A stretch of DNA of 24,266 nt from IMG/VR virus record IMGVR_UViG_3300002835_001061, positions 1 to 24,266 of that record, one strand, 5' to 3'. This DNA comes from a virus. Positions 20,915-23,511 of this stretch are shown in pieces. A program made the translations under genes and the position numbers. The notes under the pieces were generated by a model. It was not told where the DNA came from. It was given only the letters and a program-made list of their open reading frames with translations, and searched no databases. Positions within the stretch are counted from its first letter, which is position 1, and the number at the start of each line of letters is the position of its first letter.

Positions 20915-21826
20915 ATGGCTATTTCACGCGCACAACTACTTAAAGAACTGCTCCCCGGCCTCAATGCCTTGTTTGGCCTTGAGTATTCTCGCTACGGCGA
21001 GGAGCACAAAGAACTCTACGAAGTGGAATCTTCTGAGCGTTCGTTTGAAGAGGAAACCAAGCTGTCCGGTTTCTCTGCTGCACCAGTCAAAAACGAGGGT
21101 TCTGCCATCGCTTATGACAACGCACAGGAAGCATGGACGACTCGCTACAACCACGAAACCATTGCTCTAGGCTTCTCCATCACTGAAGAGGCCGTGGAAG
21201 ATAACTTGTATGACTCGCTGTCTGCTCGTTACACCAAGGGTCTGGCTCGTGCGATGGCGTACACCAAGCAAGTCAAGGGCGCTGCCGTTATCAACAACGG
21301 TTTCTCTGCGGCTTACCCCGGTGGCGACGGCGTTGCTTTGTTTTCCACTGCCCACCCGCTGGTCAACGGTGGTACCAACTCTAACCGCCCCTCAGTTGGC
21401 GCTGATTTGAACGAGACTTCTTTGGAAGCCGCCGTCATTCAGATCGCTGCTTGGACGGATGAGCGTGGTTTGCTGATCGCTGCCAAGCCCAAAAAGATGA
21501 TTGTTCCCCCGGCTCTGCAATTCGTTGCTACCCGTCTGTTGGAAACCAGCCTGCGTGTTGGCACTACCGACAACGATATCAATGCGTTGAAGAGCAACGG
21601 TTCAATCCCTGAAGGCTATGCGATCAACCACTTCTTGACCGACACCACTGGTTGGTATCTGACCACTGACGTGCCTAACGGTCTGAAGCACTTTGTGCGT
21701 TCGCCTTTGGCAAACTCAATGGATGGGGATTTTGATACCGGTAACGTGAGGTACAAGTCCCGCGAACGCTACAGCTTTGGATGGTCGGATCCGCTTGGAG
21801 TTTTCGGTTCTCCGGGTTCGTCCTAA
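20915..21826 (+). CDS. Major capsid protein, Mu gpT-like
   Basis: A 303-residue protein similar to the Mu-type major head subunit gpT: N-terminus GLNALFGLEYSRYGEEHKEL, then WTTRYNHETIALGFSITEEA and a KQVKGAAVINNGFSAAYP block, and the typical C-terminal end NVRYKSRERYSFGWSDPLGV. It should fold as an HK97-type capsid subunit. There is no obvious prodomain, so a separate scaffold (18586-19590) is expected. AAGGAG stands before the ATG. An intrinsic terminator follows 34 nt after the stop, consistent with a high-level transcript ending here. Confidence 0.92.
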   Translation: MAISRAQLLKELLPGLNALFGLEYSRYGEEHKELYEVESSERSFEEETKLSGFSAAPVKNEGSAIAYDNAQEAWTTRYNHETIALGFSITEEAVEDNLYDSLSARYTKGLARAMAYTKQVKGAAVINNGFSAAYPGGDGVALFSTAHPLVNGGTNSNRPSVGADLNETSLEAAVIQIAAWTDERGLLIAAKPKKMIVPPALQFVATRLLETSLRVGTTDNDINALKSNGSIPEGYAINHFLTDTTGWYLTTDVPNGLKHFVRSPLANSMDGDFDTGNVRYKSRERYSFGWSDPLGVFGSPGSS

Positions 21827-21860
21827 GCAAACCCGCAGCCAGCCTAGGTTGGTTGCTACA

Positions 21861-21886
21861 AAAAAGGGAGCTTCGGCTCCCTTTTT
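21861..21886 (+). terminator. Intrinsic terminator after the capsid gene
   Basis: An 11-bp stem AAAAAGGGAGC/GCTCCCTTTTT with a TTCG loop. The T run follows on the + strand and the A run gives a T run on the - strand too, so it could work in both directions. Confidence 0.92.
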
Positions 21887-21895
21887 CTTTGCCTA

Positions 21896-21924
21896 TTGCG
21901 GCTCGGTTAAAACTGTGCTACATT
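21896..21924 (+). promoter_or_regulatory. Candidate promoter of the HNH gene
   Basis: TTGCGG (21896-21901) and TACATT (21919-21924) are exactly 17 nt apart. The matches to consensus are weak (3 of 6 and 4 of 6), but the position right after a terminator and 26 nt before the ATG of the HNH gene makes a local promoter likely. Confidence 0.35.
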
Positions 21925-21950
21925 ACCTGTGTCGTAACATAGGAAACATC

Positions 21951-22553
21951 ATGGACACTACCAAACTACCTAAAACCCGCTCCGAAGCCAAAGCCACCGA
22001 AGCTAAGTACTACTTTACGGGAGAGCCGTGCAAGCACGGGCACATAGCCCCCCGCAAAACCAAAGGCGCGTGCATTGAGTGCTTAAAGGTTGAATGGGAG
22101 CGCGGCAACACCATTCGCGTTGAGTATTTCAGGCAGTACAACAAGTCAGATGCGGGGGAAGAGGCTAAACAGCGGTATTACGAAAAAAACCGTGCGCAAG
22201 TCATTGCCCGCGCACAAGCGCGACCCACAGCAGAAAAACAAGCGTACAAGAGTAAGTACAAGCAAAGTAACCCCGACCTATACAAAACGCTTACAAGTTT
22301 TCGCCGTCGTCGGTTTCGTGACGCCACCCCACCTTGGATTACGCGGAAGCAAAAATTGGAAATCCGGCAGCTTTATCAGGTTGCCATCACTATGACCCAG
22401 ACCACTGGCGAACAGTACGTTGTAGACCACATCATCCCACTACAAGGTGAGACTGTTTGTGGGCTCCATGTCCCTTGGAACTTACGCGTGACCACCCAAG
22501 AAGAAAATCTGAAGAAATCCAACAAGCTTCTTGCACCCCCCACCAATTCCTGA
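21951..22553 (+). CDS. HNH endonuclease, probably free-standing homing type
   Basis: A 200-residue protein starting at the ATG at 21951 (AGGAAA upstream). The N-terminus has a zinc-binding pattern, CKHGH at 27-31 and CIEC at 41-44. A Lys/Arg-rich helical middle (65-125) follows, then the HNH domain: VDHIIPL (D159, H160), LHVPWNL (N177), EENLKKSNK (N186). Key residues are present, so it may be active. It sits between the terminator of the capsid gene and the next structural gene and interrupts the late operon, as homing endonucleases often do. The frame remains open into the capsid gene upstream, but that part belongs to the capsid gene in another frame. Confidence 0.88.
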   Translation: MDTTKLPKTRSEAKATEAKYYFTGEPCKHGHIAPRKTKGACIECLKVEWERGNTIRVEYFRQYNKSDAGEEAKQRYYEKNRAQVIARAQARPTAEKQAYKSKYKQSNPDLYKTLTSFRRRRFRDATPPWITRKQKLEIRQLYQVAITMTQTTGEQYVVDHIIPLQGETVCGLHVPWNLRVTTQEENLKKSNKLLAPPTNS

Positions 22554-22568
22554 TATATTGCTCTTACT

Positions 22569-22626
22569 CCGGGCTTTCCGGTGTATCAAACAGTCCCGGC
22601 TGACTTACATGCAAGATTGATACACC
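22569..22626 (+). ncRNA. Candidate H-type pseudoknot RNA element
   Basis: Between the HNH gene and the next structural gene, a perfect 10-bp inverted repeat GGTGTATCAA (22580-22589) and TTGATACACC (22617-22626) encloses a 27-nt loop. CCGGG (22569-22573) upstream can pair with CCCGG (22595-22599) in that loop, giving an H-type pseudoknot. No T run follows, so it is not a terminator. It ends about 23 nt before the next ATG and could control it or mark a processing site. I recall a published candidate RNA class named for lying downstream of Mu gpT genes (Mu-gpT-DE); whether this is a member is untested. Confidence 0.55.
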
Positions 22627-22649
22627 TTAACGCATGAAGGAATGACATC

Positions 22650-23174
22650 ATGGGATTCGCAACTCACCTCGGCCCTTGGCTGCTCGGTACTGTCCGCAAC
22701 ACAACGGGCACAACGGTTGGTAATATTGAGAACTGCGGTGCAACCGTTGTCTCGCAAACATTCAAGAAAAACTACACAGGTCAGGCCGCTTCCGCGACTA
22801 CCGACACCATCTGCGTACTGCCTGCTGGCGCTCAAATCGTTGACATCCTGATCGACACCACTGTCGCATTTACAGGTTCAACTGCCGCAAACGTGTCCAT
22901 TGGCGACGGCACTACCGCCGCTTTGTATTGGGCTGCTACTGACGTAACTACTGCGGGTCGTGCAGCCGTCAGCAATGCCGCTGCTAAATTGGGCGCATGG
23001 TGTGGTGCAGCTTCTACTACATCCCCCAACGGTATTGGTATCGGCGCTACAGACGTTAAAGTGGTTGCCACAATGACTCCAACTGTTGCAGCGGTGACCG
23101 CAGGTACTGTGCAGTACACAATCATGTACGTGGTTGCCGACTCTACTGGTTTGCAGTTCCCAGCGTCTGCTTAA
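22650..23174 (+). CDS. Putative structural protein of the head module, 174 aa
   Basis: A 174-residue Ala/Thr/Gly-rich, beta-rich protein that starts MGFATHLGPWLLGTVRNTTG and contains LPAGAQIVDILIDTTVAFTG and VVATMTPTVAAVTAGTVQYT. The composition matches capsid decoration or fibre proteins; I recall this start in other phages following the capsid gene. No transmembrane segment or catalytic motif. GAAGGAATG stands upstream. The gene probably lay directly behind the capsid gene before the HNH gene was inserted. Confidence 0.75.
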   Translation: MGFATHLGPWLLGTVRNTTGTTVGNIENCGATVVSQTFKKNYTGQAASATTDTICVLPAGAQIVDILIDTTVAFTGSTAANVSIGDGTTAALYWAATDVTTAGRAAVSNAAAKLGAWCGAASTTSPNGIGIGATDVKVVATMTPTVAAVTAGTVQYTIMYVVADSTGLQFPASA

Positions 23175-23182
23175 TTGATCTT

Positions 23183-23203
23183 GGGGGCTTCGGCCCCCGT
23201 TTT
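23183..23203 (+). terminator. Intrinsic terminator or attenuator
   Basis: Stem GGGGGC/GCCCCC with a TTCG loop, followed by G and four T. The short T run and the absence of a clear promoter behind it suggest partial termination that lowers expression of the following genes. Confidence 0.78.
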
Positions 23204-23217
23204 ACAGGAGATTAATT

Positions 23218-23511
23218 ATGATGCAAACCGACGTTAAGTCAGCGCACCGCAGTACCGCTGGGTCATATTATGCAGGGCGTACACGGCTAAAAGGCTTCAT
23301 TGTTACGCCAGCCGTAAGCACTGCTTGCACATTAGAAATTCGTGATGGTAGCGCCACGGGCGAAGTCTTGTTCACGATGGACATTACAAGCCAAACGGTA
23401 GCTAACTCTACGTATGTCCTCGTCCCCGGCGAAGGTATTTTAGCAAGTACAGGTTTGTATTTGACGCTAAGCGTTGGCTCGTTAACCAGCCTCTCGGTGT
23501 TTTATGGCTAA
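23218..23511 (+). CDS. Small structural-type protein, 97 aa
   Basis: A beta-rich protein with YYAGRTRLKGFIVTPAVSTA, CTLEIRDGSATGEVLFTMD and YVLVPGEGILASTGLYLTL, a sandwich-like pattern seen in small phage virion proteins. There are two ATG codons at the start (23218 and 23221); CAGGAG lies 8 nt upstream of the first. The end overlaps the following gene by 8 nt. Function unknown; a decoration or fibre role is plausible. Confidence 0.75.
   Translation: MMQTDVKSAHRSTAGSYYAGRTRLKGFIVTPAVSTACTLEIRDGSATGEVLFTMDITSQTVANSTYVLVPGEGILASTGLYLTLSVGSLTSLSVFYG

Follow-up and report, generated by a model that had tools for sequence, protein, structure and literature searches.

A double-pseudoknot leader RNA before the cement gene of aquatic phages that exchanges with Mu-gpT-DE

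Leader pseudoknots and the cement-gene locus

The SAM-II and preQ1-II riboswitches are compact pseudoknots that act at the Shine-Dalgarno (SD) sequence, which their last helix reaches. The RNA described here is likewise a compact pseudoknot with its last helix at the SD, but its topology differs from theirs, it precedes a virion gene, it has a tiny unpaired core, and it matches no riboswitch in Rfam. The gene 32 leader of phages T4 and RB69 offers a second comparison. It is a pseudoknot in a phage mRNA leader, positioned 5' of the ribosome-binding site and tolerant of sequence change, and a homing-endonuclease gene lies nearby: segG overlaps the pseudoknot region (PMC535899). The gene 32 leader is a single pseudoknot of ~28 nt that is bound by gp32 well upstream of the SD, whereas our RNA is a double pseudoknot that abuts the SD. 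The Mu-gpT-DE family (RF03012) resembles our RNA in following a gpT-like capsid gene, preceding a cement-gene homologue, and ending at the SD. Its 53 positions form two nested helices, whereas our RNA spans ~68 nt, contains four helices and two pseudoknots, and is unrelated in sequence. We regard the RNA as a new type of leader pseudoknot in phages, distinct from Mu-gpT-DE. No prior description was found in the open-access literature searched, although unpublished motif lists may contain one.

We analyzed a 24,266-nucleotide stretch of viral DNA, called the window below, in which all features discussed lie on the plus strand. The major capsid protein gene (20915-21826) matches PF25209 (8e-13), the Mu-like_gpT family PF10124 (2e-8) and the major head protein family PHROG 371, which bears out the gpT-like identity proposed in an earlier sequence-only reading. 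An intrinsic-terminator-like hairpin with a T-run, evident from direct reading, follows the capsid gene (21860-21886), and similar hairpins are found in most relatives. Next comes an HNH/endonuclease VII-like open reading frame (21951-22553; PHROG 1035 endonuclease VII, 8e-15; PHROG 144 HNH, 5e-6). The earlier reading had placed the RNA downstream of the capsid gene. This description fits most relatives, where the endonuclease frame is absent and the capsid-cement gap measures 130-180 nt, but it is not directly true of the window, where the terminator and the HNH frame intervene. A sigma-70-like promoter, conserved in relatives, comprises TTGCAC (22531-22536), a 17-nt spacer and TATATT (22554-22559). 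The end of the HNH frame overlaps its -35 box, and the stop codon (22551-22553) touches its -10 box. The promoter ends 9 nt upstream of the four-helix RNA. The predicted 5' leader of the cement gene extends from 22566 to 22641 and closes with the SD sequence AAGGA (22637-22641).

The gene presumed to be under the control of this leader (22650-23174) encodes a cement (capsid decoration) protein. It matches no Pfam family, and the assignment comes from an AlphaFold2 (AF2) model and from phage DSL-LC04, in which the homologous position is annotated "cement protein." The AF2 model had a pLDDT of 68 when 20 relatives were supplied and was unusable without an alignment (39.6). Its best match in the PDB was a capsid chain of cyanophage Pam1 (7eel_H, E 7.6e-5), and lower-ranked matches were to capsid/cement chains of Helicobacter phages KHP40 and KHP30 and Ralstonia phage GP4. 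A virion protein gene thus begins just after the RNA, as had been claimed. In phage GP4, the cement and capsid proteins are present in 540 copies each, i.e. 1:1 (PMC9698820).

Homing-type endonuclease genes favor the capsid-cement gap as an insertion hotspot. Those in the window and several relatives are HNH/EndoVII-like, GIY-YIG-like frames are found there in group A loci (e.g. L198), and Caulobacter phage GB2A carries an annotated homing endonuclease at this place. Rfam's riboswitch models matched nothing in the window or in 20 diverse relatives, where the only hit was an abiF RNA (RF03085, 45.5 bits) at L057:1798-1835, located between the capsid and cement genes at the usual insertion spot.

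Four covarying helices

The elements of the leader follow the order P1a-P2a-P3a-P1b-P3b-P4a-P2b-P4b-SD-ATG, so P1 and P4 are each pseudoknotted with P2. The 10-bp stem P2 pairs GGTGTATCAA (22580-22589) with TTGATACACC (22617-22626) and occurs as 26 sequence types. P1 pairs CCGGG (22569-22573) with CCCGG (22595-22599), exists as seven pair types, and shows changes on both sides. Its 3' strand is carried in the loop of P3, a small hairpin of CAG (22591-22593) and CTG (22600-22602) that is followed by a conserved AC; among 10 P3 types, the middle pair is A-U, U-A, C-G or G-C. P4 forms the second pseudoknot by pairing CATGC (22608-22612) with GCATG (22632-22636), which adjoins the SD, and it is represented by 13 types. 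A conserved GA (22615-22616) directly precedes the 3' strand of P2. The linker between P1a and P2 (22574-22581) includes a local CCGG (22578-22581), a possible decoy hairpin partner that would compete for the P1 5' strand in part of the family. Across the family, P2 usually has 9-10 bp and P3 has 3 bp, and the P3 loop contains one base and then the P1 partner. Very few unpaired positions form the conserved core: an A, the AC after P3, and the GA before P2b.

The sequence-only reading had proposed an H-type pseudoknot made of the 10-bp stem and the CCGGG/CCCGG pairing. Both helices are present, and as expected of an H-type pseudoknot leader, a hairpin loop pairs with a strand outside the hairpin, with compensatory changes in relatives at P1 as well as P4. 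The proposal was right but understated, since it missed P3, P4, the second pseudoknot and the promoter. It had also noted that terminator features are lacking, and there are none inside the element; a terminator was ruled out because the stem has no downstream T-run. None of Rfam's ribozyme models matches the element. Single-sequence folding gave an unremarkable z of -1.6, which is uninformative because pseudoknots are invisible to the method.

Two IMG/VR scans provided about 100 loci that include the capsid gene together with the gene after it, and nearly all have the same four helices in the leader, spelled with different letters. We aligned 20 sequences with MAFFT without using structure. 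In this alignment 98.9% of the cells were paired, and sliding the partner by 1-3 columns reduced this value to 28-38%. Twelve pairs had changes on both sides, and the covariation was 0.349, compared with at most 0.119 for the slid versions. Among 97 distinct elements, 553 cells were changed on both sides versus 131 in shuffles; the near-100% pairing of this larger alignment is partly by construction, as it was fitted by descriptor. A strict descriptor fit 138 of 168 capsid loci. It passed only 7 of 6480 dinucleotide shuffles, with a best score of 50.0 against an observed minimum of 54, and fit one of 1127 other gene starts. All four helices covary, and relatives keep the stems rather than breaking them, so the refutation test set by the sequence-only reading came out in its favor. 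G-U cells exceed A-C cells 22 to 0, which indicates that the sense RNA is the constrained molecule. Taken together, the comparisons lend strong support to a cis-acting RNA directly before the virion gene, the kind of element that had been suggested at the outset.

The sequences of the RNA and of the cement protein are uncoupled. Cement proteins that are 95-97% identical accompany RNAs that are 52-55% identical, as in L145 and L133 (97% and 54%, respectively), and cement proteins that are 36-41% identical accompany RNAs that are 91-96% identical, as in L006 and L071 (41% and 96%). Selection preserves the shape of the leader and not its sequence, and this speaks against sequence-specific recognition of the RNA by the cement protein. 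Blast clustering of the downstream proteins merged all of them at loose cut-offs, so we make no claim of unrelated downstream protein families.

Exchange with Mu-gpT-DE and distribution among phages

The sequence-only reading raised Mu-gpT-DE as a candidate class. Membership did not hold up. RF03012 has no match at the element, at the gathering cut-off or at E ≤ 10, in searches of positions 21700-23300 and of the whole window plus 10 relatives, and the element falls short of 49 bits with that covariance model. In relatives the RNA does follow a Mu gpT-like capsid gene, as Mu-gpT-DE does (the HNH frame intervenes in the window), but it has P1-P4 in place of the nested helices CCUG.CAGG, which covers the SD, and CAGNN.NNCUG. 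More broadly, no family in Rfam 15 matches the element, and at E ≤ 10 positions 21700-23300 gave only chance matches to terminator-like sRNAs.

The suggested class proved informative about position, because RF03012 occupies the homologous spot in related roseophages. Roseobacter phage CRP-902 has it there at 72.3 bits. Six of 20 close roseophage contigs carry RF03012 above the cut-off, and the remaining 14 have the four-helix RNA, recognized with the strict descriptor in three and by eye in 11; the capsid proteins of the two sets are 95-97% identical. A regular expression recovered Mu-gpT-DE in four group B loci and in 46 of the 79 group C loci that could be tested. Its outer Rfam stem also covers the CAGG of the SD. 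Given its place in CRP-902 and the six contigs, we consider Mu-gpT-DE the positional counterpart of the window RNA, and probably the functional one. The orphan family thereby gains a reading, not as an element of the gpT gene but as one of two interchangeable cement-gene leaders, and the swapping of two unrelated folds at one spot constitutes a natural experiment on what the leader requires. In the roseophage set the RNA type switches together with the cement gene, so leader and gene may travel there as a cassette.

Phage MinM2 (OQ594354.1) has a capsid protein 69% identical to that of the window, and the descriptor fails on it. In its capsid-cement gap (L169, 1527-1632), CCGTCTCC precedes a terminal GGAGACGG at the SD, possibly a third leader type. 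A sub-threshold RF03012 match (24.9 bits, E 5e-5) lies away from the capsid gene on the minus strand of this phage (43369-43422).

A covariance model built from the four-helix RNA (R1) located a single copy in each locus searched, in every case behind the capsid gene. When 24 phage records were searched over their whole length, only one second copy was convincing. It is found in a 68-kb contig, where it accompanies a second gpT-like capsid gene whose protein is 41% identical to that of the window. This copy lies at L192:2935-3019 (59434-59518 of the contig of L154). The contig has two capsid modules, each with the RNA; it is either an assembly chimera or comes from a phage in which the capsid locus is present twice. 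Searching bacterial contigs with the covariance model gave four matches, all in contigs of metagenome bins on which the phage capsid gene is also present.

Named phages with the RNA, as found by the strict descriptor, are Pelagibacter phage HTVC023P, phage DSL-LC04 and Manatee Spring phage ct7L0027; HTVC027P and 023Pt_psg01 have what look by eye like looser versions. Groups A and B are more distant capsid lineages, the capsid of group A being about 41% identical to that of the window. A relaxed descriptor, which passes 11 of 1150 mononucleotide shuffles, detected the RNA in 41 of 77 group A loci and 43 of 73 group B loci. Its failures (36 of 77 in group A, 26 of 73 in group B) reflect partly looser helices and partly true absence: some negative loci, such as L199 and L355, keep the plan with longer loops, and others have no element. 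The RNA is absent from several pelagiphage-type loci with a different gene after the capsid gene (L303, L312, L314, L323 and L330). Hundreds of water-borne phages keep the fold, though nearly every stem letter has changed. A structured RNA family of unusually strong covariation, blank in Rfam, is added to an abundant group of freshwater and marine phages that includes the isolates HTVC023P and DSL-LC04.

Function of the leader

At the 3' end of the RNA, the SD core starts between 2 nt before and 1 nt after the end of P4 in ~85% of the strict-descriptor set. At the 5' end, a -10-like hexamer is found upstream of P1 in 93 of 115 distinct group W loci (81%, versus 23% after shuffling), at a distance of 8-9 nt in 80 of the 93. 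Group B loci have such a hexamer in 79% of cases, mostly 7-9 nt before P1. Only 6 of 35 group A loci (17%) have one, and P1 there often comes shortly after a strong hairpin. A flush 5' end is therefore common but not required.

We propose, at a probability of about 0.5, that the RNA is a cis-acting 5' leader of the cement mRNA that governs how easily ribosomes reach the gene and perhaps how stable the message is. The promoter at 22531-22559 would start transcription near 22566, 1-3 nt before P1. The transcript would fold as P2 capped by hairpin P3, with P1 joining the 5' end to the P3 loop and P4 joining the P2 loop to the strand before the SD. P4 would then lie within the ribosome landing site, so the fold is expected to set the ease of initiation on the cement gene, and an mRNA with its 5' end tied up in this way would probably live longer. 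The likely purpose is to match the amount and timing of cement protein to capsid need, and the matching of cement to capsid protein in phages becomes a directly testable question. The SD itself is unpaired beside P4 in the main lineage, so gating could be weak, and the leader could be constitutive. The element suggests an RNA switch or stabiliser of virus shell building that had not been catalogued before.

Ranked second is a role mainly as a 5' stabiliser, in which the fold slows 5'-end-dependent decay of a monocistronic cement mRNA (by RppH/RNase E, or by the 5' exonuclease RNase J) with no translational regulation. Structures at the 5' end can stabilise downstream mRNA as roadblocks to RNase J (review, PMC3997798), and in most group W loci the -10 box is followed by P1 at a distance of 8-9 nt, which would leave an unpaired 5' end of only ~1-3 nt and fits such a role, as does conservation of the fold without the sequence. 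Shielding would not explain why P4 nearly always abuts the SD, why a four-helix pseudoknot is needed over a plain hairpin, or why group A has promoter-less copies, and we regard it as unlikely to be the main function. Our main reason for favoring control of ribosome access over pure mRNA protection is that two different folds replace each other in a single place and that each of them contacts the SD. Somewhat less probable than shielding is an autogenous operator, in which surplus cement (or capsid) protein would bind the pseudoknot and block initiation as T4 gp32 does. The layout is that of the T4/RB69 gene 32 leader, with a pseudoknot 5' of the ribosome-binding site and shape favored over sequence (PMC535899), but RNA and cement protein sequences are uncoupled, which is indirect evidence against such an operator, the same RNA type precedes cement proteins with very different N-termini, and a structural protein is no obvious RNA binder. 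An element acting at the DNA level, for example a cruciform or a site of recombination or homing, might be suspected from the HNH and GIY-YIG-like endonuclease genes that enter the capsid-cement gap. Such a gene is not near most copies, though, and the site lies between promoter and SD; we reject the DNA-level reading because of the excess of G-U over A-C cells, which effectively refutes it.

In a more speculative reading, which we hold to be slightly less probable than an autogenous operator, a widespread double-pseudoknot leader class, exchangeable with Mu-gpT-DE, would meter cement synthesis while capsids assemble. In part of the family it would act as a two-state switch: the 5' strand would pair with either the local decoy or the P3 loop, depending on assembly state as signalled by unassembled cement or capsid protein. 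A riboswitch, or another sensor responding to a metabolite, an ion or a protein of the host, is improbable; its off state would be the local hairpin at CCGG 22578-22581 in place of P1. No metabolic gene is involved, and the conserved unpaired core is tiny. We treat the local P1a copy as a lead. Of the 97 distinct elements, 68 have an exact complement of P1a, 4-5 nt long, in the stretch leading from P1a to where P2 starts, and it is kept through several P1 types (CCGG for CCGGG, TCGG for CCGAG, CTTGG for CCAAG in L100, and CCTGG for CCAGG) but missing from the CTGGG, CTAGG and most CCTAG types. It covaries weakly on alignment A2, where 3 of 500 shuffles scored as high, a count based on few changes. 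The two states have close energies in a nearest-neighbour calculation with no pseudoknot terms: -12.3 for P2 and P3 without pseudoknots and -11.0 for the local hairpin with a shortened P2 and P3.
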